A stretch of 64,000 nucleotides of DNA. It comes from Pseudo-nitzschia pungens. Its lineage: Eukaryota > Bacillariophyta > Bacillariophyceae > Bacillariales > Bacillariaceae. Location of the stretch: contig CM074765.1 of the NCBI GenBank assembly GCA_037355855.1, positions 1,674,001-1,738,000 of the forward strand, written 5' to 3'. Made by a program: the position numbers and the translations under genes. The notes under the pieces were generated by a model that worked only from the letters and a program-made list of their open reading frames with translations, did no database searches and was not told where the DNA came from. Numbering within the stretch: position 1 is the first letter of the stretch; every line of letters begins with the position of its first letter. Below, in pieces: positions 3,951 to 35,068 of this stretch.

Positions 3951-4038
3951 ACAATTTGCGCAACGCGCATTTTGTCCGACGTCCCGATGTTCCAGTACTC
4001 AAAATACATAGATTTCTACACAACTTTACCCTGCGATA
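3951..4038 (+). mobile_element. LINE-3 copy, segment 1 (5' end)
   Basis: Begins ACAATTTGCGC and continues TTTTGTCCGACGTCCCGATG, matching the 5' ends of LINE-1 (21627) and LINE-2 (33023). It stops at GCGATA, where the large TIR transposon inserted. The intact equivalent site in LINE-2 reads ATGCGATATCTCGCTCCC at 33101-33118. This host LINE resumes at 18479. No TSD could be found because its 3' end is lost. Confidence 0.8.
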
Positions 4039-4062
4039 CGTCCGAAAACTGGTTCGCGACCC
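4039..4062 (+). repeat. Left terminal inverted repeat (24 bp)
   Basis: Starts CGTCCGAAAACTGGTTCGCG and ends ACCC. It is the exact reverse complement of 18455-18478 and is preceded by the TA target copy at 4037-4038. Confidence 0.95.
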
Positions 4063-4506
4063 CTCCCAAGAATTTATTTAGGGGGGTCGCGATTTATTCC
4101 TGGCTCATTTTGACGTAGCTCGATTCCTAGCTCTCTCGCGATTTGCAACCCCAATCGCGACCCAGTAACTACCTCAATTACGAAAATTACGAAAAAAAAA
4201 AAATAAAATTCATACTCGACCCGATTTTTTTTAAGACTCAATTTTTTTTCTTCAGTCACTTAATCAAATTAATCAACATTTAAAAAAAAAAATATTTGTT
4301 TTCTCAAAATAATCCCCCCCTTCCCCCAATTTTTTTTCAATCTGACTCATTATTACCGACCCTACCAACATTATATATTATGAGACTGTTGCAGAAATTC
4401 ACTCTCAAAAATTGATTTCTCATCCCGACACAAGTATTTCCCATCACACCCCTCAAGAAATTCATCAGGAAAATCACAATTATTACCCGAATTACAGGAA
4501 TCGCGA
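4054..4506 (+). promoter_or_regulatory. Left subterminal TCGCGA motifs
   Basis: The palindromic hexamer TCGCGA occurs at 4054, 4087, 4136, 4155 and 4501, in an otherwise AT-rich subterminal region. The same hexamer is clustered at the right end. Subterminal repeats of this kind commonly bind transposases; that role is inferred. Confidence 0.6.
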
Positions 4507-4653
4507 CCCCCATGAAAAAAATTTTGAAACACTATGATGCAAAATATAAGTCTTTCTTTTGATAAATATTGATACTACTCTAATAATTGTTTATTCTCTG
4601 TTCAGTTTTCTCACACACTCACACACAAATTTTGGTTCGATCTCGAACAATTT

Positions 4654-6248
4654 TTAAAGACTGGCCAACACGATATCGTTACTGCCAGTAAAGTCCTCCT
4701 CATCTTCATTTACATCTAGCAAAGCTTGTAGCTCCGGACTAATGTATTCAGTAACTTCTTCCTCCTGCACCCAGTCCTCATCGTACGGACTGTTGTTGTT
4801 GTCATCGTTTTCACTCTCGCGACGGAGCCTCTCTCTCAATCTTTCCTCACACTCTCTACCCGTTCTCGGATCTTTCCTCAGCACATCAATCTCCCTGCAC
4901 AAGTTATTGAACAGTGCTAGACCTTCCTTCGACCATGATTGTTCCTCTCCACTGTATTGGTCACAAAATTTCTTTTTCTTCCCCCTTCTCACAATCCTGC
5001 CACCACCGTTCCTTTTTTGCTCAACATGATTCACCCAAACATCATACTCATTATGAATCATCATCAATGCAAATGCTTCATCGCTTTCTGTGAATATTTC
5101 ACTCAGCAAACATGTCGTCTTTTTGCATCTGTAGCCCCTCTCTATTGGAGAGATGCTTGATAGAATCCGAGTCACAAAGTAATAAAAATCATCATTTTCA
5201 CTGTTGTTGTCATACCTTCTGTACTCTGGGTTCAGTCCCAGCCTCTTTCTACTAGTTCCATTACTACTAATACTCTCCCGCATCACAATCTCCACTTTAC
5301 CTGGAAAGGAATCTGGCACAATGCCTTCGCGATCGAGTGTGTCCTCTAGGACGACACGTACACAGCAGTAGAAAGTGTTAGAGTAGCAGGGGATGTACCA
5401 TCAATCTCAACCAAGCAGTAATAGCAACCAATTTATTCACTTAGTAAGCACGTACCGAGAAAATGTTTTCTAGCCAAAGTTTGAGCATTGTGCCGCAGCG
5501 TGGAAAGACCCTTGTACACCAACCTTCTGTTAAACCCATAAAAAATTTCAAATGAAATACCATGGGGTGGAACGACAGCTCGGGACGCAATCGCTTTCTT
5601 CAAAATTTTTTTGACCTTATTCTCATCCACGATAAACTTCAAGCCACGAAACCAACTATTTCTTATGTGCCGTGTCAACTGTGCTTCCAAACCCGCGTCT
5701 TTTTGATGTTTCTTAAGTTTATCCGATTGCGCCTTAGTTATCTCTAATTTTGCTTCACTTACTGTTCGTACCATCTGTGGCTTTGGCTTCTTCCCTGTTG
5801 TAGTTGCCTCCAGCGTGGGTTCTTCTTTTTTTGTATCCTTCTGCAGTGTTGTCACATCCCTCTCTAAAGAAGCTACTTTCTGCTGGCTCTCTTTTAGCTG
5901 TTGTAGCAATGCTTCGTATGTGGGTCTTGGTGTTGTTTTGGTACCGGTCGTAATCGGTCTTGGTGTAACAACACCCGGGGCGGCGGGGGGTTTGTTGGTT
6001 GGTGGTGTGGTACCAACGAAAACCGCGGTCGGGTTGTTCTTGGTTCTTTTATTTTTTTCATCAGCACCACCTGAGGTGGGTGGTAGTTTTCTACTTGTCT
6101 TTGGGTTCGATTTCGTAGGGGTAATACTAGCAGTAATATCAGCACCTGTATTAGCATTGGATACAATTTTTCCACTTCGATTCTTTCTTGGTGCATTGCA
6201 ATCTGCTTTCTTTTCTATTTGCTGATACTCATCATATACGGTAGGCAT
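4654..6248 (-). CDS. Unrecognised 494-residue protein with one intron, transposon gene 1
   Basis: Two exons, 6248-5456 and 5345-4654, join through a phase-1 intron and rebuild a continuous frame across ...HFLEDTLDREGIV. The protein starts MPTVYDEYQQIEKK. Residues about 30-130 are Pro/Thr/Lys-rich and disordered. A coiled-coil-like segment (LLQQLKESQQKVASLERDV) follows. A compact basic helical domain comes next (TRHIRNSWFRGLKFIVDENK... GFNRRLVYKGLSTLRHN), then a region with YSGEEQSWSKEGLALFNNL and an acidic tail. I recall similar domain styles in hypothetical proteins of diatom genomes but cannot name a family. It sits next to the left TIR, so a role in transposition or regulation of the element is possible but unproven. 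Confidence 0.65.
5346..5455 (-). other. Predicted intron of transposon gene 1
   Basis: On the minus strand it begins GTACGTGC after base 5456 and ends GTCGTCCTAG before base 5345 (110 bp). Splitting codon G|AG restores a single open frame across two ORFs that each end or begin without a valid stop or start. Confidence 0.75.
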
Positions 6249-7017
6249 TTTTTCGGGCGTCGGAAGTAAAAAAAATATGAAGTAAAAAAAATATGTGAAG
6301 CCATAAAATTGTGAACACAGTTTTTTCACTACTAACAAAAAACCTGTTAATCATTTTCCTTTCACCATCCACGCAACTTGTAATGGCATACACTTCACTA
6401 TGGAAATTGTAGGTGACGTGGCCAAATGTTTAAGAGGATTCCCACCCGCGCCATAATTTTTTTTCCATCCACCTGTGCACATCTCTGTTCATTCTCTACT
6501 GTACCCATATTCACTACTGATTGTATTTTTGGCTCTACCATTCCCTACTGTACAGTAGGAAAAAATTACCAGCAGTAGTACTACTACACAAGTATACCAG
6601 CAGCACCACCAGTTCAACCACTACGCGTACGTGCCGTAGTACTGGCAGTGATAGATTCACATATATAATGACAATCTCCATAGATATCAAAAGGATCGTA
6701 CAGCCTCTGTGGTACCCTTATGACCATAAGGGTCAGATGTGGTAGGATGGAGTCCTTCACAAGAAATATATTTTTGTTTGCCAAGGGACTGGACTACTAC
6801 TTTTTTTGTCAAATTTTTCATCCTGGTTTATTCTATTTCATATTCTTGGACATACTAGTAACCAAATAATCACCATTATCTTACATAGCCACTTGTGATT
6901 CTGTGCATTTTTAACAATAGAACCCCAAAAAATGCCGGAACCTGTGACCCATAGACAGGGAAAATGCACATTCTGTGGTGTACTGGGTATGGTCCCCAGA
7001 CACCAGGTGTCACATCC
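6249..7017. other. Non-coding spacer within the TIR transposon
   Basis: AT-rich, with CTA/GTA-rich stretches (6535-6650). No ORF with coding character. It probably contains the promoter of gene 1, but no clear signal is visible. Confidence 0.5.
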
Positions 7018-7790
7018 AAAATATAATTGGCAGCAAGTTTATTCCTTTTTACTATTCTAATAGATGCATATACTGACCATTATTCAGCGTGGAATACAAC
7101 AAATGATAGTTAGTGCGACCCCTACACAGCAAATATGCATTTTCTGTGGTGTAAACTCGGAAACTGTGAATTTTTCTGACAAATCAGAACTTACATTCAT
7201 AATATAATTGGTAGCCAGAAGTTTTTTTCTCCTATTTACTATTCTAATAGATGCATATACTCACCATTATTCAGTGTGGAATACAAAAAAATTTCGTGAC
7301 AGTGTGACCCAAACACAGGAAATATGCACATTCTGTTGTGTTAACTCCGGTGCTGGGAATTTCACTGAGAAAGCAGAACTTACATCCATAATATAATTGA
7401 TAGCAAGTTTATTCATTTTTAATATTCTAATAGATGCATATAGTCACCATTATTCAGTGTGGAATACAACAAATGATAGTTAGTGCGACCCATACACAGC
7501 AAATATGCCTTTTCTGTGGTGTAAACTCGGTTCCTGAGAATTTTTCTGACAAATCAGAACTTCTTACATTCATAATATAATTGGTAGCAAGAAGTTTATT
7601 CCTATTTACTTTTCTAATAGATGCATATAGTACACACCATTATTCAGTGTGGAATACAAAAAATTTGTGACAGTGTGCTGACCCATACACAGGAAATATG
7701 CACAGTCTGTTGTGTAAACTCTGGTGCTGGGAATTTTACTGAGAAAGCAGAACTTACATCCATCATACTATAATTCCTGGTACTAGTAAG
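7018..7790 (+). repeat. Higher-order tandem repeat, about 185-bp monomers in 370-bp dimers
   Basis: The landmark TAGATGCATA occurs at 7061, 7248, 7431 and 7618 (spacings 187, 183, 187). Alternate monomers are the most alike: units 1 and 3 share AGTTAGTGCGACCC, and units 2 and 4 share a GTGACAGTGTG-type segment. The array is therefore A-B-A-B with a 370-bp period, plus a partial fifth unit at about 7745. Confidence 0.85.
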
Positions 7791-7920
7791 AAGTTTATTG
7801 TTTTTTTTGGGTTGTAAGAGTACATCTTTATTGATTTATTATAATATTATCGTAATTTTTACTACTAATTCCTAAATTATTTGATCCATTTTTACAATGT
7901 TTTGATACCCATCCTGTGTC

Positions 7921-9288
7921 TTACTTAGGTGGTGGCTTCTTTCCCGGATTCGATCCTGGTGGTGGCTTTTTTCCCGGATCCGATCCTGGTGGTGGCTTTT
8001 TCCTCTGGTCGAACGGAAGGCTTGATGTTGAGCTCTTCTTGCCCTTCTTCCCCCCCCCTTTTTTTTTCTTCTTCTTCTTCCCTTTGATGGCTTGTTTCAC
8101 GTTTCGGATGTACTTTTCCAAACTCCTTTGTGACACAGTAGTAGCGGTCGGGTCGTCATCTGTGATCTGAGTGTATACCATACCACGGAAGTGGAATCTT
8201 TGTTGCATTGTCATACCATTAGTTTCACCACTAATAATGGTTTCGATTTGTTCCTCTGTCAAAAGCTGATCTGCCTCCTCAATTCTTGCATGCGCTTCTT
8301 CCACTTGCTCATCTGAACCTCGCCCTCTAGCACCAAAAACTGCCCTGAAATGGTGTCGTACACTTTCTGTGTGATAAGATCCGACGTGGGTTTCTGGTTT
8401 GTTAGGATCAAATGAATTTTTCAAGAACCAATCGACTCGGGTTTCTGGTTTGTTAGGATCAAATGAATTGTTCACGAACCAATTGCCAGCATCGATCAAG
8501 CGTTCTCCAAAGGACCGCCGATAGGCATTAAAACCTGGACCCACAAGGAATGTTAGTTTTGGCTCATCCTTTCTCTTGTAGTCCTCATTCTCGGTTGTGG
8601 CAGTTGGTTTTAAATGTGGTTTCTCAACAACTTCGTCGTAGCAGAATAAACCATGCATAGAGCCAGGACATTCCAGGTGTTTTTTTTCATCCTCAAAGGT
8701 GGTGAGTGTCTGCAGTACTTTTACGTTTGTCGCCACCATTTTAAACTTCTTCATGGAAGTACTGTCTTTCATCTCAATGACAGATTCGGCCCTGTGATTT
8801 ATTTTCCGGTTCAACCTCTGCTGCTTTCGGAACTTGCGATCATTATAGTCCCCATTGGTACCATTAGTATGGTTCGAATTGTCACCCTTGGTTGGGGCCG
8901 TGGAATGATCCAAGTTATTTGAACTGTTGTTATTGGCAGCATCACTGTTGGTAGTGTTGTCCATGGTTGGGGCAGTGGAATGGTCCGAATTGTTGGAACC
9001 GACGGGAGTGGCAGTCGAATCCTCCAAATTGCTAGAATCTCCATGTTGTTGCTCCTGTTCGTAGAGCTGAAGCACAGCTATGGGCCAGTCTGGTAATGGA
9101 TTTTTGGATGGCAGACTTGGAGGTATAGGCCATCCATCTGCTGAAGACTCAGACTCACTTTCAGATCGTGGTGTTGGTTCGGACGTTGGGCTTTCAGTTT
9201 CCTCTTCGGTACGAGTAGATCTTCTTCTATTTGTAGGGCGTTGTGAGTCAGGAGGTGTAGTGCCTTTTTTCTTTTTGTGCCTTGCCAT
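7921..9288 (-). CDS. Unrecognised 455-residue basic protein, transposon gene 2
   Basis: Starts at ATG 9288 (MARHKKKKG) and ends at TAA 7921. The first 150 residues are Ser/Thr/Asn-rich, with imprecise repeats containing DHSTAPT. The central part (about residues 180-400) looks folded. It contains a direct duplication of NSFDPNKPET separated by DWFLK, and a helical stretch LTEEQIETIISGETNGMTMQ. The C-terminus is very basic (KGKKKKKKKGGGKKGKKSS) and ends in three copies of KKPPPGS(D/N)PG-like repeats. No known catalytic motif is visible. The low-complexity ends suggest a nucleic-acid-binding or structural role; that is inference. It is transcribed in the same direction as gene 1. Confidence 0.6.
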   Translation of the reverse strand: MARHKKKKGTTPPDSQRPTNRRRSTRTEEETESPTSEPTPRSESESESSADGWPIPPSLPSKNPLPDWPIAVLQLYEQEQQHGDSSNLEDSTATPVGSNNSDHSTAPTMDNTTNSDAANNNSSNNLDHSTAPTKGDNSNHTNGTNGDYNDRKFRKQQRLNRKINHRAESVIEMKDSTSMKKFKMVATNVKVLQTLTTFEDEKKHLECPGSMHGLFCYDEVVEKPHLKPTATTENEDYKRKDEPKLTFLVGPGFNAYRRSFGERLIDAGNWFVNNSFDPNKPETRVDWFLKNSFDPNKPETHVGSYHTESVRHHFRAVFGARGRGSDEQVEEAHARIEEADQLLTEEQIETIISGETNGMTMQQRFHFRGMVYTQITDDDPTATTVSQRSLEKYIRNVKQAIKGKKKKKKKGGGKKGKKSSTSSLPFDQRKKPPPGSDPGKKPPPGSNPGKKPPPK

Positions 9289-9723
9289 GATGTATCTGCA
9301 GGTATTCCCTGACTGTTGAATTGATTGTTAAAGATAGAGACCGATTCGATTGTTGTGGAAGGGAACGATGCGTCGAACAATGTGTGAAAAACCGTCCCCA
9401 CGCCGATCGAATTTTGATGATTCATCTTAAAACCTTTCGAAACGATGATCCATCTGAAAACCTTTCAAAATGCAATAGGCAATGGTTCAACTGGTTGAGC
9501 TCATCCCCAACTGTTCACTTGTTGTCACGATCGTGTGATGAACTTCCATTTCCCCCACCGTGGGCCTTTGCTCGAAACGGGCCTTAGCTCGAAACGAACA
9601 ATTTCCAAAAAAACAACGTGAAACTGTCTTTACACATTGACATCAGTTTTAAACCGTAAACGAAGCTACTCCTTCCACTTCAAATTCAAACGACGCTACT
9701 CCTTCCACTTAAAATTATTCTCT

Positions 9724-9850
9724 AATTTTTTGATTGGCTCATTCATAAGGAATTTTTTGATTGGCTCATTCATAAGGAATTTTTTGATTGGCTCATTCAT
9801 AAGGAATTTTTTGATTGGCTCATTCATAACGAATTTTTTGATTGGCTCAT
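9724..9850 (+). repeat. 27-bp tandem repeat, about 4.7 copies
   Basis: Unit AATTTTTTGATTGGCTCATT followed by CATAAGG, repeated with almost no change. It lies upstream of gene 2 inside the TIR transposon. There are no unique spacers, so it is not a CRISPR array. Confidence 0.9.
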
Positions 9851-10329
9851 TGTGGGGAAGACACTAGTAGTACAGTATAGTAGGATGTGTATGATGCTAC
9901 TTCGCGCCAAAAATTTTGTACTAGTAACATATGCGTACGGTGTACAGCGCCATGTCATTTTTTTTTTCCAGCATGTATACTTAGTACCGCATCGTACATA
10001 CATCTCTGTCTTTTTTTCTTACGTCATTTTCTTCGGTGAATTTTCCGCCCCACATCTCCCTCATGGGATGTGTCATAATTTTCATTTTCATTTTCGTTTC
10101 AATTCTTGCATCGGAATATTCTGGCCGGTCCAGTTTAACCTAGCCATCAGGCACCGGGACCATCTCCTTTGAAGAAGACACACGCTGTGGGGAGCTTGAG
10201 AACGGCCGCTCTTGCTTCCTGCTCTGTTGTCCGATTCATATCACGGAGGTCGGGTGTGTTGAAGTCCTGGAACTACCTGGCTTACCCAGATATACGACGT
10301 ACTGATATTGAAAACAACGAAAAGGAAGA

Positions 10330-10860
10330 CGAAAATCACAACCGATCGGTGCAGAGAGGGACAACGAGGACGACGAAGACGACGAAGGTACGATCGCTCC
10401 AGAGGGGGACGACGGGGGTACAATCGCTCCAGAGAGGGACGATGGGGGTACGATCGCTACGATCGCTTCGGACGGGGACGACAAGGGTACTAACAGTTTG
10501 TCTTTTTTTTTTTTTAATTTGGACAGATTGGTGTGGAGAGGGACGACGACGGCGAAGGTACGATCGCTCCAGAGAGGGACGATGGGGGTACGATCGCTAC
10601 GATCGCTTCGGACGGGGACGACAAGGGTACTAACAGTTTGTCTTTTTTTTTTTTAATTTGGACAGATTGGTGTGGAGAGGGACGACGAGGGCGAAGGTAC
10701 GATCGCTCCAGAGAGTGACGACGGCGGGTACGATCGCTTCGGACAGGAACGACGCCGGGTACGATCGATTGATTGGTGCTGAGATGGACGACGACGACGT
10801 ACGGTGTGTGCTGAGAGGGACGACGACGACGATCGCTTCACAGACGAACGACGGGACATA
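10330..10860 (+). repeat. GACGACG/GATCGC-rich repeats with a 140-bp duplication
   Basis: Short units such as GGTACGATCGCTCCAGAGAG and GGGACGACG recur. A larger block starting ACAAGGGTACTAACAGTTTG repeats at 10481 and 10621 (period 140 bp), including a T-tract. Confidence 0.8.
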
Positions 10861-11009
10861 GTTTAATACAAATACTTTCTTCTTTTTTCTTTTATCAAGT
10901 ACTGCCGTCTGTTTCCTCTAGAATCATAACTAACACCAAAATTTTTTCATTCTCGCTTCTCGCTTGTTGCAGGCGACGGATCGAACCAAATACCCCCTAC
11001 CCCCTACGA

Positions 11010-11830
11010 TTTTCGGTTGTTGATTACAGGAGCGACGCCTACAGGAGCGACGCCTACCATTTTCGGTTGTTGAGTACAGGAGCGACGGATCGTACAGGTG
11101 CGACGGATGCAACGAAATACCCCTACAATTTTCGGTTGTTGAGTACAGGAGCGACGCCTACCATTTTCGGTTGTTCAGTACAGGAGCGACGGATCGTACA
11201 GGTGCGACGGATCGTACAGGTGCGACGGATGCAACGAAATACCCCTACAAGTTTCGGTTGTTGAGTACAGGAGCGACGCCTACGATTTTCGGTTGTTGAG
11301 TACAGGAGCGACGCCTACGATTTTCGGTTGGTGAGTACAGGAGCGACGCCTACGATTTTCGGTTGTTCAGTACAGGAGCGACGCAACGAACGAAATACCC
11401 CTGCGATTTTCGGTTGTCGAGTACAGGAGCGACGGATCGAACGTCGAGTACAGGAGGGACGGATCGAACGTCGAGTACAGGAGCGACGGATCGAACGTCG
11501 AGTACAGGAGCGACGGATCCAACGTCAAGTGCAAGAGCGACGGATCCAACGTCAAGTGCAAGAGCGACGGATCCAACGAAATCCTACGATTTTTGGTAGG
11601 TTGTTGCAGAAAGGAGCGAATACACCTCCCATTTTCGGTTGTGGAATACAGGAGCGACGGATCAGGAGGAATACCAAATACCCCTACGATTTTCGGTTGT
11701 CGAGTACAGGAGCGACGGATCGAACAGCAGAAAGGAGCGAATACCCCTACAATTTTCAGTTGTTGAATACAGGAGCGACGCCTACGATTATTGGTTGTTG
11801 AGAACAGGAGCGACGGATCGAACGAAACCA
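11010..11830 (+). repeat. Minisatellite upstream of gene 3
   Basis: More than 20 degenerate copies built from TTTTCGGTTGTTGAGTACAG and GAGCGACGGATCGAACG. The array runs directly into the 5' region of the gene at 11857 and is related in motif (TTTTCGGTTGTT, GGAGCGACGGATCG) to the array at 14040-14820 on the other side of that gene. Confidence 0.9.
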
Positions 11831-11856
11831 AGGTTGTTGCAGAAAGGATCACCACA

Positions 11857-14031
11857 ATGACACGTTCCAGCAGGCGAACCCTTGGTGACACGGAGGCGAC
11901 CAACCCAGAAATAAGGGGTGGTAGATGCAACAGAAGGATCCAACAGAAAATCTTGAGCGAGAGCACCTTGTGCAAACCGAGCCAATGTGTTCTGGGTTCG
12001 GTCACAACACTGACACAGAAACGAAAACGAACTGCAAAAGGAACCACAAGCTGTCCGATGACGGACGACGGCATAACATGCACGTCCTGTGGCAATTTTG
12101 CTTGCAGAAGATGTCTGCAACTACTGTTCAACCGAATGGACAAGGAGAAGACTACACTGCCCTCGGTGCTACAGCAGATGAAACAATCGCTACAAAACAA
12201 TATCGGGGTAGTATCCACTTGTCATGGATGTATCTACTATGCCCAAAAGGAGCAAGTGGTGAGGTCCCATCGGCACTTCATTGATGTTGCGAGTCACGCA
12301 GTTAGATTAAAGTATGATGGGTACCTTGTCCTACCAGAGTATGACTTGCTGATTGACACTCCTTTCAATTCAGAAAACATTGTTGACTGCCATGGATTGG
12401 GCAAGGAACCTGAACTGCCAGGAGTGAAACACTTTGTGGTGGGATATGAGCTTGCACGTCAGATAGCAGAATCAGGAATAACAGCAAAGAAGCTCACGGA
12501 CACGGTTAAAACAGAAGTTAAGAAAATTGAGTGCTCTGATATAGTGGATCCAAGCAGAACAAGAACTTACATCGTGCAACTGATCATAATTCACATGGAA
12601 AGAATCAAACAATCAAGAGTGTTCTTGTGTCGTGACCGGTTGAAGAAATGCCATGTGACACTTATTGTTGGATCATTCGGTTCCGAAAATGAACAAGAAG
12701 GGAAGCAGAAGTGCAACCTGTTGTTAGCAAGATTCTATCACGGAAGCCATCGACTCCAGATGACCCAGAATGACGTTCACTCGTTGTTTAAGAAAGTTGA
12801 GTCCATGACTGCAAATAACAACATAGAACAGATGAGAAGTGGTGGCAGCAGTGGTGTCTACAGAGGACCAACTAGAGCACTCTTCCAGATGCTCGACAAC
12901 CCAATTGTGACACCAAGGTCCGGACGGGGGGCATTTGTTGTTCCAGACCGGCACACAATTCATGTTTTTTACATAAACAGGCAAGGGAAGGCTGTTCACT
13001 TTGCGTATTGCAACCCCCAGTTTGGGGGGCAGATTGGGCCTATCACAGAGGATATGTTTTCTGATTATAAATTCTTTCAACCATTCACTGAGGCGAAGAT
13101 AGTGAGTGCCTTGCTGCTGAGACAATTAAGCAACATGGTCAGTGGTCTGAATGTGGTGCCACTTGCAGTGGACCGGGAGTTGAGAAACCACAGGAAAGCT
13201 ATAGCAATGGCAAGAAGGCAGGAGATCGGTGACATTTTGTATCAGTTTTCTTCCCTCAATTCGACGACCCTTGTCCAGCATCCAGTCGGCATTCATTATG
13301 ACTCATTTGGTAAACAGGATGGCGAGACTGTTTACAGTATAGAGAACAAGATCGGTTTTGCAACTAAGCACACCAATTCTTACACGAAATATGGCATGGG
13401 AAGGGGGGGTCGCGGTCCCGAAACATTTGTGTTCTGCTTGTTAGACTGGGGTAGAGAAAGAAGACGGAGACGAGCCGCACAAGTGAATCATGAACAGGCA
13501 GCCGCAGTGGAGGCTCAGAGACAAGCAGAGTGGCAAGCAGCGTTTGAGCGTTGGATGGCAGTGGACGCAAATCCAAATGCCACTCAGGAAGAGAGGGATG
13601 AGGCACGGGACGAGGCAATATTAACTCAAGCTGCGGTCTTGGCAGCTCAGGAAGAGACAGCCAATGCACAGGATGCTTTGGACCAAGCAAATGCTGCGAT
13701 CGCTGCAGCCAATGCTAATGCTGGAGGCAACGCTCCTCCTTCAGATGATGACGAGGATGCTGAGAATGATGATGATGATGATGATGCTGGAGGCAACGCT
13801 CCTCCTTCAGATGATGACGAGGATGCTGAGAATGATGATGATGATAATGCTGGTGAGGATGATGAATCTGAATCCTCTAATTCGGATTCGGATGCGGACA
13901 TGGATATTTCAGATTCGGGTTCAGAAGTTTCTTATGTTCATCCATATTTAATTGACTACGGTTCGGCTTCACTACCGTCAGAATCAGACACGGAGGAAGA
14001 GGAGGTTTCAGAGTTTTGGCGGAACGACTGA
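11857..14031 (+). CDS. Unrecognised 724-residue Cys-rich/acidic protein, transposon gene 3
   Basis: The first ATG after the minisatellite is at 11857 (MTRSSRRTLGDTE); the stop is TGA 14031. A Cys-rich N-terminal module (TLCKPSQC, then CPMTDDGITCTSCGNFACRRC, later STCHGC) could bind zinc in a RING- or PHD-like way. The middle, about 500 residues, looks like a single folded domain (for example FVVPDRHTIHVFYINRQGKAV). From about residue 540 there is an Ala/Glu-rich helical segment, then a direct duplication of AGGNAPPSDDDEDAEND and a long Asp/Glu/Ser tail. An acidic tail is common in chromatin or transcription proteins. No known enzyme motif is recognised. It is the only plus-strand gene of the element and is bracketed by related minisatellites. 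Confidence 0.65.
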   Translation: MTRSSRRTLGDTEATNPEIRGGRCNRRIQQKILSESTLCKPSQCVLGSVTTLTQKRKRTAKGTTSCPMTDDGITCTSCGNFACRRCLQLLFNRMDKEKTTLPSVLQQMKQSLQNNIGVVSTCHGCIYYAQKEQVVRSHRHFIDVASHAVRLKYDGYLVLPEYDLLIDTPFNSENIVDCHGLGKEPELPGVKHFVVGYELARQIAESGITAKKLTDTVKTEVKKIECSDIVDPSRTRTYIVQLIIIHMERIKQSRVFLCRDRLKKCHVTLIVGSFGSENEQEGKQKCNLLLARFYHGSHRLQMTQNDVHSLFKKVESMTANNNIEQMRSGGSSGVYRGPTRALFQMLDNPIVTPRSGRGAFVVPDRHTIHVFYINRQGKAVHFAYCNPQFGGQIGPITEDMFSDYKFFQPFTEAKIVSALLLRQLSNMVSGLNVVPLAVDRELRNHRKAIAMARRQEIGDILYQFSSLNSTTLVQHPVGIHYDSFGKQDGETVYSIENKIGFATKHTNSYTKYGMGRGGRGPETFVFCLLDWGRERRRRRAAQVNHEQAAAVEAQRQAEWQAAFERWMAVDANPNATQEERDEARDEAILTQAAVLAAQEETANAQDALDQANAAIAAANANAGGNAPPSDDDEDAENDDDDDDAGGNAPPSDDDEDAENDDDDNAGEDDESESSNSDSDADMDISDSGSEVSYVHPYLIDYGSASLPSESDTEEEEVSEFWRND

Positions 14032-14039
14032 TTCAAATA

Positions 14040-14820
14040 GAAGATCGAAGGATCGATCGATTTTGGTTTGTTCGAGAAAGAAGCGACGGATCGATTGATG
14101 TTCTTGAAAGGAGCGACGGATCGGTCGATCGATTGATTTTCGATTCTTAAGATCGATCGATTGAGTTTTGGTTGTTCCAGAAGGGAGCAACGGATCGATT
14201 GATTTTCGGTTGTTCCGAAAAGGAGCGACGGATTGATCGATTGATTTAATTTTCGGTTGTTCCAGAAAGGAGCGATGAATCGATCGACAGATCGATTGAG
14301 TTTTGGTTGTTCCAAAAGGGAGCGACGGATCGATTGATTTAATTTTCGGTTGTTCCAGAAAGTTCCAGAAAAGAGCGACGGATCGATTGATTTTCGGATG
14401 TTATGAAATGGAGCGACGGATCGATTGATTTTTGGATGTTATGAAATGGAGCGACGGATCGATTGATTTTCGGTTGTTCCAGAAAGGAGCGACAGATAGA
14501 TTTTCAGTTGTTCCGAAAAGGAGCGACGGATCGATCGATTTTGATACGGATCGGAATATGCGATGGATCGATTCGGAAATGGAACGATGCAATGAAGCGA
14601 CGGATCGATTCGGAGCGACGGATCGATCGATCGGTTGTTCCAGAAAAGAGCAAAGGATCGTTCGGTTGCTCGGTTCGTTCTGAAATGGAACGACGGATCG
14701 ATCGATTTTCGGATGTTATGAAATGGAGCAACGGATCGATTGATTTTCGGTTGTGCCAGAAGGGAGCGACGGATCGATCGATTTTGATACGGATCGGAAT
14801 ATGCGATGGATCGATTCGCA
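14040..14820 (+). repeat. GATCGATTGATTTTCGGTTG minisatellite downstream of gene 3
   Basis: About 20 degenerate units made of GATTTTCGGTTGTTCCAGAA and AGGAGCGACGGATCGATCGA. Includes a larger duplication: the block GATACGGATCGGAATATGCG occurs at about 14540 and 14787. Confidence 0.9.
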
Positions 14821-14879
14821 ACTGAGCAAATGATACAAAGATTTTTTATTGTTTAGTTACCTGCCTAGTGTAGAATGGT

Positions 14880-17800
14880 TCATTCAGCAATGCCGGTGTT
14901 GTCTGATTCCTCTCGTTGTACAGTACAAGCGGAGTAGAGGCTCTCGTAGGTAGTATATGTCATAGAATTATTCCTCTTTTCAAAGAATTCGAGCCATTGC
15001 AATCGATTGTGAACAACCAACCAACGACCATTGTTTACCGGTTCAGCATTCTCGTCCAGTTCAGGAACGACTGCCAGTTCGGAAAGAATAGTGTCAGTGT
15101 TAAATAAATATAAAGTATTGTCGAGATGGCCGCTTTTTACAAAGTGAGATGATGTAGACCTCGGATCCTCTCTAAACTTTCTGACAACCGCGTAGATGCC
15201 ATCTGAATCGACATTGTATCCATTCACAGCCGATGTGGGTTGTTTCAAATCTTTTACATGCAGAAAACACAGCATTTGACAGGGGATTTCAGTGTTGTCA
15301 TCAACTGCAAACATTGCCCAGTCAAACCATACACTGTTAACTTGGCCTGAATCAGACCTGTATGAGGGGTGACATCGGAACAGGTAGTTGACGCGATTCA
15401 CAGAATCCCATCTGTTGTGTTCGGTGAACCCAAATATGCTGGATGTGTCGTTGAGCAAAGGAAGGACAGAGTTGCAAACAAAATCTAGTACAATTGATGA
15501 ATGAAATGGTTTGTTGTAGTTCCGTTGTCTGATCCATCTCATCGAACTTTTGGTTCCATCCAGAAAAATGGTGAAACGGGCACCATACTGTGTAGGACGG
15601 GGGGAAATGACTTTAGGATCACCACCCACTTTCTTCAACTTGTAATGAGAGGTTGCGAGTCGAAGGAGAGATGCTTCTTCTTTCCGATGGGTTGTCTGAT
15701 GGACTAAGGTTGCGGCATTTTGTTGAGTATTTTTGGACGGTGCTTTTATTTCAGTCTTGTGGTGACTTTCACTGTATGCAGAATCGAAACCTAATGTTGG
15801 ACCCCAAAGACTGATGTACTTCGGAATGTGAAAGTAGAGGTGATTTTTGATAAGTTTTGTTCCCATTCCCTTCCTAAGGCAGGTGCCATTGATAGAGTTG
15901 AGGAAATGAATAATGGTTTTGGGAAGATTTTTGATGCACTTTGTGGTTGGACGGCCGTGTTTGAGAAATTCTTCCATAGAGATGATTTGTTCGATAACAT
16001 CAATGTGCTTCTTCACAAATGAGTTGTCCCTCAAAATTGCAATGCCGGATTCAGAAACCAATGTTAGAAGAATCGAAATCAGCATACCACTGTAATCGTG
16101 CCCCTCTTTTTTAGTGACAGATAGAAGATTGGAGCTGAATTTAGTTCTGGGAAAGTCACGATCCGACTGCCTTGAGAGAAGGGCTCCATATTTTTGAGAG
16201 ACATGCCCAATTGTATTTACTGTGGAAACACCGGTCTTTAGGTGATCAGCATACGGGCATGGTATTGAACCCTTCATCAGTTGCTCCAGGGATTCTACCT
16301 CTCGTTTGGCACACCCGAGCTGGTGCATGTGGAGGCATTCACCGGGCGTGGCTAGGTGGATGTTGTTTACATTGGTACCAAAGTTGAGACTGTGGAATGC
16401 ATTTCTGATTTGGTGGTGAGAAATATTGTTGAAATATTCCTTGGTGGTGGTGGCATCTGAGTCTGGAAATGTATGAAAATGTGATGGGACCCAAAGAGAG
16501 GCTGTTTGTTGTGCTGATGGTCTGTTTATGTCCTTGGTGGAACAGTTACAGTGTTGGCAGAGCTTTTGTACACCACCCGACCGTGATCCATATTTGCCAC
16601 ATAATTTATCATGCAGTTCTGTGTCACCGATGACATAGGCTATTGCAAATTTCATTTTGACTTGCCACAATTGGCCGGCATAAGGGAGAAAATTCCATTG
16701 GATGCCTTCATGGGTGGACTCGCATGCTTCTTTGAAAGATCGGAGCGCCACTTCTAGGGCATTATGGAGGTTTTGGATTGATTCTTTTGGAGATGGTTTT
16801 CTTGAATGGTGGATGCTCTCCAAATCTGAGTCAGGATGAAAATAGATTGTTGTCCATGCTTCCGGCCTTTTCCTGGTTTCAATGTTGAATATGCCTAGGG
16901 TCATGTTGAGTGGAGTCAGTGATAGTCTTCCATGCGCATCCAAGCTAATTCCATCCATGTAAAAAATGATGGGAACAAGGATTTCAGAATTTTCTTCTAT
17001 GCAGAGGGATCTCCAGGAATCCGACCACCATGATCCGTGGTGCAACTCAGTGATGGGACAAGAATCAGTTCGAACCGGGAAATGCTCTGGTGACAAGGGG
17101 GTATTGCTGTTGGGGAATGACAAATTTTCTTCCATCATTAAATCTGGGTTCGACAGCAGGGAATACAAAGCATCCAGAAAAGAGCGGACGTAGATTTGGG
17201 TGGGTTTGTTGTCGGGAAGCCAATTCACAATTTTGGGCTCAAATTTTGGTTCCGACGCTATGCCAAGATTTTTTTTAATTTCTTGGAAAATGGCGTCACG
17301 TTTTCTTGTTGGTGTAATATTGAAATCGAAACCGGGAAGATTGTTGCTGTCTTTTGCCCAATTGAAAATGGTTTGATAAGTGGAAAGAGGTAGCTTGTGC
17401 TGCGATATAATGTTGAGGAGGTTGATTTCAGCAATAAGTTCCGGACGGGGTGGGAACAGAGTGCGATTCCGGAATGTTTCCTCTCTTTCGTTTATGGAAA
17501 TGGTGGTGCTTTTCATGATTTCGGAATCAGATATTTCGGTGTCAGAACTGGCATCAAAATTGTCAGGTGCATCAACATCGGAATCGATTGCATTCATTTG
17601 TTCCTCATTTTCAGCCATATGCGATTCGATTGCCTGTCTGTCCATGGGTGGGATGAGTACATTGGCGATCACTTGAGGATTGAGTGAGGTATGGATAGAA
17701 GTTGTTGCGGCGGTGTTCGTTTTGGCAAGGGAGGGGGGGATTTGTGGTCCATTCTGTGTCATTGTCAGTCCATACTGTGATGGTGTGTGTCGGACCAAAG

Positions 17801-18074
17801 GGAGGGTGACTTCGGCTTTCGCAGAAGAAATAAAATCCATAAGATCGTTCTTAACATAATAAGTTCGGCAATCACTGTTGGAATAGAGATGCCTGGAGAG
17901 GCCTTGAGATACGTATCGGTAGGTGTGAAAGTGGCTCGATTCTTGTTTGTATCCCTTGAAGGATTGCTGTGATTTTCTTCTTCTTCCAGAGGCAATGCAG
18001 TTGCGACAATGGAATGTCTTGGGTATTCTGGGCTCATTGGCAAAGTGCCTTGGGTCCGAGGAAGCTTTCGGCAT
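14880..18074 (-). CDS. Putative Plavaka/CACTA-like transposase, transposon gene 4
   Basis: A 1064-residue protein starting at ATG 18074 (MPKASSDPRHF). The N-terminus has a Cys/His module (FHCRNC, then GLSRHLYSNSDC) typical of the DNA-binding zinc fingers that begin many large DDE transposases. The core contains IIFYMDGISLDAHGRLSL followed by TLGIFNIETRKRPEAW, then IGDTELHDKLCGKYGS and LCQHCNC. This order resembles Plavaka/CACTA-type (CMC) transposases, where the first Asp of the catalytic triad lies in the FYMDG stretch. The C-terminal part, with FTIFLDGTKSSMRWIRQ, is less clear. It lies closest to the right TIR and is intact. Assignment is from motif memory, not alignment; the catalytic Asp/Glu set is not proven. 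Confidence 0.55.
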   Translation of the reverse strand: MPKASSDPRHFANEPRIPKTFHCRNCIASGRRRKSQQSFKGYKQESSHFHTYRYVSQGLSRHLYSNSDCRTYYVKNDLMDFISSAKAEVTLPLVRHTPSQYGLTMTQNGPQIPPSLAKTNTAATTSIHTSLNPQVIANVLIPPMDRQAIESHMAENEEQMNAIDSDVDAPDNFDASSDTEISDSEIMKSTTISINEREETFRNRTLFPPRPELIAEINLLNIISQHKLPLSTYQTIFNWAKDSNNLPGFDFNITPTRKRDAIFQEIKKNLGIASEPKFEPKIVNWLPDNKPTQIYVRSFLDALYSLLSNPDLMMEENLSFPNSNTPLSPEHFPVRTDSCPITELHHGSWWSDSWRSLCIEENSEILVPIIFYMDGISLDAHGRLSLTPLNMTLGIFNIETRKRPEAWTTIYFHPDSDLESIHHSRKPSPKESIQNLHNALEVALRSFKEACESTHEGIQWNFLPYAGQLWQVKMKFAIAYVIGDTELHDKLCGKYGSRSGGVQKLCQHCNCSTKDINRPSAQQTASLWVPSHFHTFPDSDATTTKEYFNNISHHQIRNAFHSLNFGTNVNNIHLATPGECLHMHQLGCAKREVESLEQLMKGSIPCPYADHLKTGVSTVNTIGHVSQKYGALLSRQSDRDFPRTKFSSNLLSVTKKEGHDYSGMLISILLTLVSESGIAILRDNSFVKKHIDVIEQIISMEEFLKHGRPTTKCIKNLPKTIIHFLNSINGTCLRKGMGTKLIKNHLYFHIPKYISLWGPTLGFDSAYSESHHKTEIKAPSKNTQQNAATLVHQTTHRKEEASLLRLATSHYKLKKVGGDPKVISPRPTQYGARFTIFLDGTKSSMRWIRQRNYNKPFHSSIVLDFVCNSVLPLLNDTSSIFGFTEHNRWDSVNRVNYLFRCHPSYRSDSGQVNSVWFDWAMFAVDDNTEIPCQMLCFLHVKDLKQPTSAVNGYNVDSDGIYAVVRKFREDPRSTSSHFVKSGHLDNTLYLFNTDTILSELAVVPELDENAEPVNNGRWLVVHNRLQWLEFFEKRNNSMTYTTYESLYSACTVQREESDNTGIAE

Positions 18075-18415
18075 GGTGGTGTGTGTTTTTGTGATGGTGC
18101 GATGTCCCGGTATGTGATGTGACACCACTGAAAAAAAAAGTTCACAAAGGTGCGTGACGAAACACTTTGGTGTGATTGAAGTAAATTGGATTAAAAATTA
18201 TTTGTTGTGTTGAGTCAAGTGTGTCAAATGTGTAAAAATGGAATGAAAATGTGAAGAGGGACTGAATGTCAGGGTCTAGAACAGAACATTTCCGTCGAAA
18301 CGTTGGGGGAGTTGAGAAAAGGGAGAAATGTGGTTGAGAATAATGGAAAAAAGTGGAGAATAATGGAAAAAAGGTTGTGAAATAAAAAATTGGGGTCGAA
18401 TTTTTTTTAGACAAG

Positions 18416-18463
18416 TCGCGATTGGGTCGCGATCCGGTCGCGATTGGTCGCGATGGGTCGCGA
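18416..18463 (+). promoter_or_regulatory. Five helically phased TCGCGA motifs at the right end
   Basis: TCGCGA starts at 18416, 18427, 18438, 18448 and 18458 (steps 11, 11, 10, 10), and the last copy lies inside the TIR. Spacing of one DNA turn suggests cooperative binding on one face of the helix, most likely by the element's own zinc-finger protein. The binding role is inferred. Confidence 0.7.
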
Positions 18464-18478
18464 ACCAGTTTTCGGACG
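18455..18478 (-). repeat. Right terminal inverted repeat (24 bp)
   Basis: Reverse complement of 4039-4062 without mismatch, followed by TA at 18479-18480. Confidence 0.95.
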
Positions 18479-18870
18479 TATCTCGCTCCCTTCTACACCC
18501 CCAATCACAATGCCAGGACCTACACATACTAACCAAGACATGCTCTCTTCATTGATGCTATCTGTTTAGCTGCTCACTGCTCTCCTTTTATTGCTTTGGT
18601 GCCTATTCACCACTCGCCGACGATCGAGCAGCAGCAGCAGCACCAACACCTACACATAATTTCTACAGCACTTCCAGTACAGATTCTACAGCAATTTGGA
18701 AATAATTTTCATTGTTTTTTTGCTACGATTTGTTTCCAAGCTTGCTTCAATCTGTTTCTAAGCTCCCCCAAAGGCCCTTAGGTATATCTTACTATACTTA
18801 ATGTTCTCCACTGTTCCCAAGCTGCTTAAGTGATTATCACTTAACGTTCTACATTCTTCAAGGTTCCTTG
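18479..18870 (+). mobile_element. LINE-3 copy, segment 2
   Basis: Continues the LINE 5' region interrupted at 4038: TATCTCGCTCCCTTCTACAC onward, matching LINE-2 from 33107. It includes the hairpin motif TTAAGTGATTATCACTTAA at about 18827-18846. It ends with CCTTG (18866-18870), the target copy of LTR element A, and resumes at 35093. Confidence 0.85.
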
Positions 18871-32683: not shown

Positions 32684-33021
32684 TGTAACATGCTACCGTA
32701 TGTTACTCTACGAGGGCTCTAAATGATTATTGAATCACGCATGTATTCCAATATATACGGCATTCATGTATGTATGTTCAGTATATACACACATACAACG
32801 GAAACCGATTGGATATTCAAGTATCAAGATAAAATATCAAGAGTCTTATGACTCGCTGATAATCTTCGCTCATTCATCCATACTCTCAAGAAATCATTCC
32901 CATCTCGTAAAGTATTCAACCATTCTCTTTTGTAACACAATTGTATAATTTTATTAACCTTTCATCATTAAAATACCTCTATCGCGTACCACTCCATCTA
33001 ATTCTACCCTAGAGTGTTACA
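32684..33021 (+). repeat. 3' LTR of element A
   Basis: 338 bp, same length as the 5' LTR. LINE-2 entered at its last base plus one, so the terminal 19 bases recur at 35069-35087. Confidence 0.92.
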
Positions 33022-33022
33022 C

Positions 33023-35068
33023 AATTTGCGCGAAGCGCATTTTGTCCGACGTTCCGATGTTCCAGTACTAAAAATACGTAGATTTCTACACAACTTTACC
33101 ATGCGATATCTCGCTCCCTTTTACACCCCCAATCACAACCCCAGGACCTACATGTATTAACCAAGACCTCCGCTCTTTGTTTCTGCTATCAGTTCAGTTG
33201 CTTGCTGCTTTGTTTCGGCTGCTTTGGTGCCTATTCACCATTGCCATCGTCGATCGGCAACAGCAGCACCACCACCAAAACCGACACATAATTTTCTACA
33301 GCACTTCCAGTACAGATTCTACCGTACAGCAAAACCGACAACAACGTTGTATTTCTGCTACGATCTGTTTCCCAGCTCCATTCCAAGGCCCTTAAGTATA
33401 TCTCATACTTAATGTTCTACACTGTTTCCAAGCTGCTTAAGTGATTCTCACTTAATGTTCTACATTCTTCGAAGTTCCTTGCTGAGTCCTCATAAGTCTT
33501 TTCAAGTCGAAGTTCACGAACAGCCCCTTCCACTGTAGGAATCTTTTTTAGAAAGAAATTCTGTCATCTGTTTTCAAGTCCATTGCCCTGCTGGACCCTA
33601 AGTGTTTTTCACTTATGGTCCTACTGTTTCTTGACCCAAGCCCCAAAGCCGCTAAGTACAGCTCGCTTAGGGCTCGACTACCTACATATACCTCCCAGAT
33701 GTACTGTATAAATGTCATCTGTTTCCAAGTCTACTGCCCTGATGGACCCTAAGTGTTTTCGCTTATGGCCCTACTGTTTCCTGACCCAAGCCCCAAAGCC
33801 ACTAAGTACAGTTTGCTTAAGGCTCCACCACCTACATATACCTCCCAGATGTACTGTATAAATGTCATCTGTTTCCAAGTCTACTGCCCTGCTGGACCAT
33901 AAGTGTTTTCGCTTATGGTCCTACTGTTTCCTTACCCAAGCCCCAAAGCCGCTAAGTACAGCTTGCTTAAGGCTCTCCTACCTACATATACCTCTCAGAT
34001 GCACACTTCAACTGTCATCTGTTTTCAAGACTACTGCCCTGCTGGACCATAAGTGTTCTCACTTAAGGTCCTACTATTTCCTGACCCAAGCCCCAAAGCC
34101 GCTAAGTACAGCTTGCTTAAGGCTCTCCTACCTACATATACCTCTCAGATGCACACTTCAACTGTTATCTGTTTTCAAGACTACTGCCCTGCTGGACCAT
34201 AAGTGTTCTCACTTAAGGTCCTACTATTTCCTGACCCAAGCCCCAAAGCCGCTAAGTACAGCTTGCTTAAGGCTCTCCTACCTACATAACCCTCTCAGAT
34301 GCACACTTCAACTGTCATCTGTTTTCAAGTCTACTGCCCTGATAGTCCATAAGTGTTTTCGATTATGGACCTACTGTTTTTATGACCCAAGCCCCACAGC
34401 TGCTAAGTACATGTTACTTAACGCTTCACCACCATTATATACCCCTCCAGTTCACAGTACAGCAGAGACCTGTTTTCAAGCCTACAGCCCTGATGGTCCA
34501 TAAGTGTTATCACTTAGAGCCCCTGTTTCCAAGCTACTACAGGAGAGCAAGTTCAAGTTCGAACAGAAGGCCAGCTGTTACGAATTTGAATTTGGTAGTA
34601 GGCTCCACCGCCTCTACGTGTTTCCTACTACGAAGTTCGAACAGAAGGACAGCTGTTACGAATTTGGTAGTAGGCTCCGTACTATATGTACCATACAGTG
34701 GTAAGGAATGTGTTTGGGGCACTCGCATTACTGATGCTGCAATACAGCATGCAGCGACCAGGGACAGTTTTGCTTGTGTTTTCCCTTTCACGTTCTTGTT
34801 ACCCCGTCTCCTGTACGCTTTGCAACAGCTGTGTCTGTCGTGCTCTGGACTGGTTCGTTTTTTTTCCTGTTTCTTACCAAGGTTCGTTTGCAAAATAGCC
34901 GTCTTTACAACCTGGGGCCTATTCCCCATGGTTGAGGCGGCGCGTCGTTCTACAACTTGGGGCCTAACCTCTCTTCGATTGAGGCGACGATAAAGTCTGG
35001 TTACAGACTGAGTAGCTTTTAACCACCTTCGGTGGATTTTCCTACTTAAATAAGTATATTATCAATTA
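33023..35068 (+). mobile_element. LINE-2: ORF-less LINE derivative
   Basis: 2,046 bp between 20-bp duplications TCTACCCTAGAGTGTTACAC (33003-33022 and 35069-35088). It starts with the LINE 5' end (AATTTGCGCGAAGCGCATTT) and ends with the LINE 3' hairpins and an ATTATCAATTA tail, but has neither ORF1 nor ORF2. It therefore looks like an internally deleted parasite mobilised by LINE-1-type machinery. Most of its body is a 150-bp tandem repeat. Confidence 0.88.
33563..34463 (+). repeat. 150-bp tandem repeat with two hairpins per unit, about 6 copies
   Basis: GTCATCTGTTTTCAAG-type landmarks at 33563, 33714, 33864, 34014, 34164 and 34314 give a period of 150-151 bp. Each unit contains a stem such as GGACCATAAG/CTTATGGTCC (33894-33903 and 33912-33921) and a second one around GCTAAGTACAGCTTGCTTAA. 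Because 150 is a multiple of 3, a long frame stays open; it is not thought to be a gene. Confidence 0.9.

Follow-up and report, generated by a model that had tools for sequence, protein, structure and literature searches.

The DNA analyzed here is a 64,000-nucleotide stretch of the diatom Pseudo-nitzschia pungens (GenBank assembly GCA_037355855.1, contig CM074765.1, forward-strand positions 1,674,001 to 1,738,000), which we call the window. It holds a DNA transposon with four genes: SPL, p455, p724, and a transposase. Our central finding is that p455 and p724, together with the motif arrays around p724, form a cassette with a history of its own, which has very probably been exchanged between copies of the element and between two transposon families. 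Two diverged types of this cassette (A and B) occupy the same backbone, and type A is also present in a second family, whose ends and transposase are not those of the first.

Structure of the element and its insertion site

The element is 14,440 bp long (4039-18478) and its inverted ends, CGTCCGAAAACTGGTTCGCGACCC, are perfect across 24 bp (4039-4062 and 18455-18478). TA abuts it on both sides (4037-4038 and 18479-18480). The sequence that hosts the insertion is itself duplicated elsewhere in the window (32,990-33,480 compared with the element flanks). Because the insertion lies in such duplicated sequence, an empty site is visible in the window: the joined flanks align with a stretch at about 33.0-33.5 kb over about 490 columns, crossing an uninterrupted gcgaTAtctcgc (33101-33118). 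The first-pass annotation had described a complete multi-gene transposon with 24-bp terminal inverted repeats, TA flanks, an empty site, and four genes, and all of this is borne out; we regard the following anatomy as almost certain.

4037-4038: left copy (TA) of the 2-bp target-site duplication (TSD)
4039-4062, plus strand: left terminal inverted repeat, 24 bp, perfect; best 40 of 521 genomic candidates scored as matches
4054-4160: left subterminal TCGCGA repeats, four sites (4054, 4087, 4136, 4155)
4654-6248, minus strand: SPL, spliced, 494 aa (exon 1 6248-5456; intron 5455-5346, 110 bp; exon 2 5345-4654)
7012-7767: 187-bp tandem array, left border of the cassette (putative hinge)
7921-9288, minus strand: p455, cassette gene 1; basic, with a low-complexity N-terminus; evolves fast
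10378-10767: 140-bp/30-bp tandem array inside the cassette, CpG-rich
11025-11815, plus strand: type-A motif array, 16 occurrences of GGAGCGACG, directly upstream of p724
11857-14031, plus strand: p724, cassette gene 2; conserved Cys/His-rich N-terminal part, orphan domain, coiled coil, acidic tail
14046-14785, plus strand: type-A motif array, eight occurrences of GGAGCGACG, downstream of p724
about 14825: right border of the cassette
14880-18074, minus strand: Plavaka-like transposase, 1064 aa (D374, D484, E769; C506/C509; H745/H749; BAH-like C-terminal domain at about 825-1021)
18416-18463: right subterminal TCGCGA repeats, five sites
18455-18478, minus strand: right terminal inverted repeat, 24 bp, perfect; best 40 of 231 genomic candidates scored as matches
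18479-18480: right copy (TA) of the 2-bp TSD
33101-33118: paralogous empty site gcgaTAtctcgc

The subterminal TCGCGA repeats are likely binding sites for the transposase or a partner. A minus-strand open reading frame at 11367-12074 (235 aa) was taken as spurious, as it is mostly read across a motif array.

Family copies and gene content

We searched the genome (66.9 Mb in 28 contigs; the labels C1-C12 below refer to these), with copy numbers from these searches being lower bounds. The family has dozens of copies, with at least 40 scored matches for each end, which is far above chance. Eleven copies were read, namely that of the window and ten from elsewhere. Ten of them have both ends; these are 13.6-15.5 kb long and all ten are flanked by an identical 2 bp (TA in five, CA in two, TT in two, and CG in one). 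The eleventh (C4_6067800), whose left end was not recognized in the stretch read, is outside this count. Because the matching flanks differ between copies, the TSD is 2 bp but not TA-specific; we therefore rejected TA-specific insertion, and the TA duplication first proposed applies to the window copy and not to the family.

All eleven copies share gene order and strand: SPL(-), p455(-), p724(+), transposase(-). Genome-wide, 31 transposase matches are near-full (at least 3,100 bp); 27 of these have the other three genes beside them, with order and strand as expected, and so do 30 of all 43 transposase matches. This count took 43/43 transposase, 56/67 p724, 69/89 p455, and 57/119 SPL matches; short fragments and weakly matching SPL relatives are outside it, and chance may account for a few of its long-distance pairings. 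The four genes thus do co-occur between the same ends, as had been supposed. On the two conditions that the first-pass annotation had set against its own view, the outcome is mixed: there are gene-poor copies with the same ends, and the p455-p724 pair is found outside such ends, but within another transposon.

Nine right ends (C11:2106659, C11:1990941, C9:2756356, C7:3345752, C5:5255857, C5:4784909, C3:3929137, C2:2584035, and C2:575924) share one score (660 bits, 97%), and most lie away from transposase matches. This suggests a recent burst of gene-poor copies. At C4:6302005-6309073, within an expanded family-1 copy, there are three tandem SPL copies at about 3.1-kb spacing, each with one TGA.

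The first-pass annotation took all frames to be intact and under selection. The spliced SPL frame is open in all eleven copies (479-495 aa); the transposase is unbroken in ten of eleven and p724 in nine of eleven, and p455 is split in one type-B copy, so some copies are not intact. Pooled Nei-Gojobori ratios of nonsynonymous to synonymous divergence (dN/dS) are 0.15-0.17 for the transposase, 0.20-0.41 for p724, 0.41-0.54 for p455, and 0.46-0.62 for SPL, from pairs that are not independent and with broken-frame copies excluded per gene (p724 of two copies, the transposase of one). Because dN/dS is below 1 in all four genes, the guess of selection holds; the ratios indicate purifying selection of differing strength, with SPL weakly constrained.

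Two cassette types in one backbone

Five of the ten other copies carry type B, and the window copy and the remaining five carry type A. In the B copies, DNA identity with the window is about 90-92% between 4039 and about 7644 and 95-98% from 14825 up to the right end, except that the last 375 bp of one B copy match the window at 81%. The A and B cores are unrelated at the DNA level, apart from some stretches of p724 and short patches of about 70% identity. Synonymous divergence (dS) between A and B is low in the outer genes (SPL, 0.082; transposase, 0.094) and high in the cassette genes (p455, 1.75; p724, 1.55). Trees of the arms intermix A and B: for instance, three A copies group with two B copies in the left arm (node value 96), and one A copy groups with two B copies in the right arm (91), though certain other nodes are weak (57-62); the p724 tree splits A from B.

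The types of p724 and p455 agree in 38 of 39 pairs; the remaining pair belongs to an intermediate copy (84% and 61%). We conclude that the two genes move together as a block. We rejected the view of the four genes as one fixed unit, which the first-pass annotation had favored: cassette and arms have different histories, and p455-p724 is a separate cassette with two diverged types, one of them also present in a second family. At the left border of the cassette, the 187-bp array has two to six units in all eleven family-1 copies and four units in the three family-2 copies read there; it is absent from a family-2 fragment on C1. We interpret this array as the hinge at which recombination takes place.

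The same cassette in a second transposon family

At sites on C5, C8, C3, and C9, the type-A cassette adjoins a different transposase (transposase 2), which is 54.8% identical to the family-1 transposase where read. An SPL homolog adjoins transposase 2 and shares 25% and 37% identity, by exon, with family-1 SPL. The ends of this second family are CGTCTRATAACTGATTTT. Of three copies checked, those on C8 and C3 have a 2-bp TSD (TG and TA, respectively), and the one on C5 is flanked by GA and CG. The copy on C8 runs from 3374181 to 3390507 and is about 16.3 kb long; the middle of it is known from search matches. Gene order is SPL2-TPase2-p455-p724 vs SPL-p455-p724-TPase in family 1.

Between the families, cassette dS is 0.04-0.10 and synonymous sites of the transposases are saturated (proportion of synonymous differences, pS, 0.86). 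These values bear on the possibility that A and B go back to two old lineages of the element, with gene conversion having homogenized the outer arms and the cassette having stayed put. The arms are indeed more alike than the cores, and recombination near the same borders is required either way. However, the low cassette dS relative to the window, the saturated transposases, and the differing gene order mean that the cassette, or the arms around it, must have moved, so we consider this account quite improbable.

Among 18 transposase-2 matches at 92% or more, four have p455A and p724A nearby, one has a p724A fragment, and 13 have neither, as compared by eye among the matches listed. The cassette therefore looks dispensable to the family-2 backbone. 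In the stretch read of one of the 13 (C3:264000-273900), the same left border is followed by another core, of 4.9 kb, in which neither p455 nor p724 is detectable, and next comes the family-2 right arm. No ends were found at C1:3053000-3062500, which we therefore regard as a fragment and not as a simple, intact element of family 2.

Other relatives are scattered through the genome. A family-2 transposase (94%, partial match) lies with an SPL-like gene at C8:1661099-1665521, about 8-13 kb before the window start. A transposase at C11:728785-731952 is 69% identical to transposase 2, has an SPL-like match at C11:727489, and probably represents a further family.

Motif arrays follow the cassette type

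The motif GGAGCGACG occurs 24 times in the window vs 0.12 expected, always inside the element and in one orientation. It is present 13-39 times per copy in six of six type-A copies and absent from five of five type-B copies, and it is placed just upstream and downstream of p724, never within it. The family-2 copy on C5 has 21 occurrences; the C9 piece, which stops short of p724, has none. A longer word, GGAGCGACGGATCGAT, occurs 117 times in the genome (reversed control, 0). Of the 100 places listed, 87 are within 4 kb of a type-A p724; the other 13 comprise six in a copy with p455 but no p724 match, three about 1.8 kb from right ends, and four unexplained. The type-B word CAACGACGATTTCA occurs in none of the six A copies and 337 times genome-wide (reversed control, 5), and part of these sites lie in gene-poor copies whose right ends are the same. 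At one gene-poor left end (L005), the type-B array follows directly, and six of seven C1-C2 right ends without a nearby transposase have a type-B motif within 10 kb (by eye, among the matches listed). The ratio of observed to expected CpG is 1.6-2.4 in the arrays flanking p724, 0.64-0.73 in the four genes, and 0.57 in the window to the right of the element.

Repeated motifs suggest a DNA-binding partner, and the cassette might accordingly encode accessory transposition proteins, comparable to TnpA of CACTA elements, that bind internal and terminal repeats to form or regulate the transposition complex, with A and B as diverged versions. The presence of cassette and SPL in 27 of 31 near-full transposase copies and the purifying selection on the cassette genes are consistent with this. 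Yet near-identical ends, SPL, and transposase pair with either cassette (dS about 1.6), cassette A also occurs with different ends and a different transposase, and the arrays lie around p724 and not at the ends and are distinct from the subterminal TCGCGA repeats. The 13 close transposase-2 copies with neither cassette gene among the matches listed, including the one core read, also speak against it. Altogether, we judge accessory transposition proteins to be unlikely.

The p455 and p724 proteins

Neither p724, p455, nor the SPL exons matched a Pfam family at its cut-off, and no domain was recognized in p724 or p455. The Cys/His-rich N-terminal part of p724 is conserved with a relative in Pseudo-nitzschia multiseries, which was the one protein returned when whole databases were searched for distant p724 relatives, including with a four-member profile; sequence searches of solved structures with p724 gave nothing useful. 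An HxD-like stretch and fungal precedent led us to consider p724 as a TET/JBP enzyme, which we rejected for want of a domain match: Pfam scans of five element frames and of p724 relatives contained no TET/JBP match. Five distant p455 relatives (26-27% identity, frames of about 945 aa; C6:3073105, C9:57873, C12:1584243, C2:6346955, and C10:2359109) have no p724 or close transposase nearby among the matches listed.

An orphan p724 with a single relative in protein searches would fit a cassette that is cargo, either captured genes or a selfish pair such as toxin and antidote, which would be unrelated to element activity and would spread as a passenger of several transposons. Its presence in two families and the pairing by type in 38 of 39 cases fit as well. 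Cargo of this kind gives less reason for arrays that follow cassette type immediately on both sides of p724, or for an array-bearing gene-poor copy, and no host copy outside transposons was recognized among the matches listed, not every one of which was traced. We therefore hold a cargo origin to be rather improbable.

The transposase and SPL

The transposase passes PF18759 narrowly (26.7 bits; curated cut-off, 26.3). The family had 57 genomic matches, with 0 of 14 control genomes matching, and 20 of 35 aligned transposase relatives match PF18759 at E<=1. D374, D484, C506xxC509, and H745xxxH749 are invariant in the 35 aligned sequences, and E769 is present in at least 90%. By structure comparison, the predicted fold of the catalytic core is RAG1/Transib-like. 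The nearest named relatives are in the diatoms Pseudo-nitzschia multiseries and Cylindrotheca fusiformis; sequence searches of solved structures gave nothing useful, and a search of BFVD for viral relatives of the fold gave 0 matches at E<=0.001. The Plavaka/CACTA-like assignment first made is supported by the PF18759 match, the D-D-E with C(2)C and H(3-4)H, and the 2-bp TSD. Judged by sequence, the transposase is Plavaka-like and belongs to neither described subgroup (PlavakaA or PlavakaB), because the termini are CGTCC..GGACG in family 1 and CGTCT..AGACG in the second family.

The spliced 494-residue protein predicted earlier is confirmed: the 110-bp SPL intron (GTACGT...CTAG) has the same donor and acceptor in all eleven copies. 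Ends, SPL, and transposase would form a mobility module that appears self-sufficient in outline, with transposition activity and a role for SPL both presumed. SPL relatives at 25-27% identity with frames of about 498 aa occur away from detected Plavaka transposases (C8:478086, C9:2398114, C1:5306850, C5:3355877, and others) and are perhaps a third family.

A possible role for the cassette

The cassette is optional to the backbone, exchangeable, fast-evolving, and tied to its own arrays. The explanation that we favor, tentatively and at slightly less than an even chance, is a large autonomous DNA transposon that moves by cut and paste, belongs to the Plavaka lineage, and has two separable modules, in which the accessory cassette would be anti-silencing or regulatory like VANC. 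That role is put forward just as cautiously, as analogous to, not homologous with, VANDAL/VANC. A DDE transposase of RAG1/Transib fold, aided by SPL, would recognize the ends with their subterminal TCGCGA repeats, excise the element, and insert it with a 2-bp duplication; its BAH-like C-terminal domain may read a histone mark or steer insertion towards it. p455, p724, and the arrays would be carried between two tandem-repeat borders and swapped as a block by recombination there, between copies and between the two transposon families. The anatomy is parallel to that of VANDAL, and we therefore propose that p724, probably with p455, binds the cassette's CpG-rich arrays and the related arrays of gene-poor copies, and that this binding would keep array-bearing copies expressed. 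The swapping of the middle block points to an exchangeable module that would help such elements to maintain themselves in the genome. A fuller version, in which a semi-independent anti-silencing cassette is exchanged at a shared hinge, its arrays protect gene-poor copies in trans, and the transposase has a built-in BAH reader, we find doubtful.

Several observations weigh against this explanation. The type-B word CAACGACGATTTCA is not confined to B cassettes, and A copies contain another type-B word, AGGGACGACGA, one to three times. No domain is recognized in p724 or p455, neither has a Pfam match to a VANC-like family, and the structure model of p724 has a predicted local distance difference test score (pLDDT) of 39, unusable except for a coiled coil at about 530-620. 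The transposase domain at about 825-1021 resembles BAH by fold, with no sequence support and with a Z that the comparison tool flags as possibly middling. SPL is weakly constrained (dN/dS 0.46-0.62), and 13 of 18 close family-2 transposases have neither p455A nor p724A among the matches listed. Tandem repeats and CpG-rich spacers may also arise without function.

Comparison with known systems

CACTA/EnSpm elements have CAC..GTG termini and a 3-bp TSD, and this element has neither. Transib elements have a 5-bp TSD; the catalytic fold is in common, but the TSD here is 2 bp. In the RAG complex, the PHD finger of RAG2 is a separate chromatin reader, whereas here the reader-like domain, which is BAH-like, is part of the transposase itself. 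With such a domain, a transposase of RAG1 fold would offer a new parallel to the RAG2 PHD finger in chromatin-guided DNA breakage.

PMC12730594 describes Plavaka transposases as having a D-D-E motif in which C(2)C and H(3-4)H are placed between the second D and the last E, and this transposase has the same arrangement. The Plavaka TSD is 2 (or 3) bp, here 2 bp in 10/10 copies. The termini differ, being TGT..ACA in PlavakaA and CATCA..TGATG in PlavakaB (Kojima 2025, PMC12730594) vs CGTCC..GGACG here. Relative to the Plavaka elements described there, this element also has a diatom host, three extra genes in which no TET/JBP domain was detected, a BAH-like C-terminus, and an exchangeable cassette. 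The literature searched yielded no diatom Plavaka, no gene-pair-plus-array cassette passing from family to family, and no BAH-like domain on such a transposase; for a "BAH domain" transposase this was judged by title or the start of the abstract. Accessory genes that cross transposon lineages are already known, since PMC12730594 describes a TET/JBP accessory gene of fungal transposons, thought to oppose silencing, that passes between lineages. The difference is that here a two-gene block with its own arrays, and with no TET/JBP domain detected, would pass between two related Plavaka-like families in one genome.

Protein-array anti-silencing is likewise known from VANDAL elements. According to PMC5735166 and PMC10398659, Arabidopsis VANC proteins bind short motifs in tandem same-orientation repeats of non-coding parts and erase silent marks, with specificity that differs between VANDAL subfamilies. 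The likeness to these accounts lies in a multi-gene transposon, same-orientation non-coding motif arrays, and subfamily-specific motif sets with diverged partner proteins; the type-A motif follows this pattern, and the type-B motif set is less exclusive. Pfam scans revealed no homology of p724 or p455 to VANC, VANC itself not being part of the comparison. If our explanation is correct, co-evolution of binding protein and target array would be directly testable here, because two diverged protein-array pairs occupy nearly identical backbones in one genome. Defense-evasion genes would then be a swappable commodity, a gene pair and its cis motifs being replaced wholesale with the mobility genes untouched, in a transposon counterpart of phage modular exchange outside plants and fungi. 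The system differs from VANDAL in that the transposase is of another superfamily and in that the entire gene-plus-array block is, very probably, exchanged between families.

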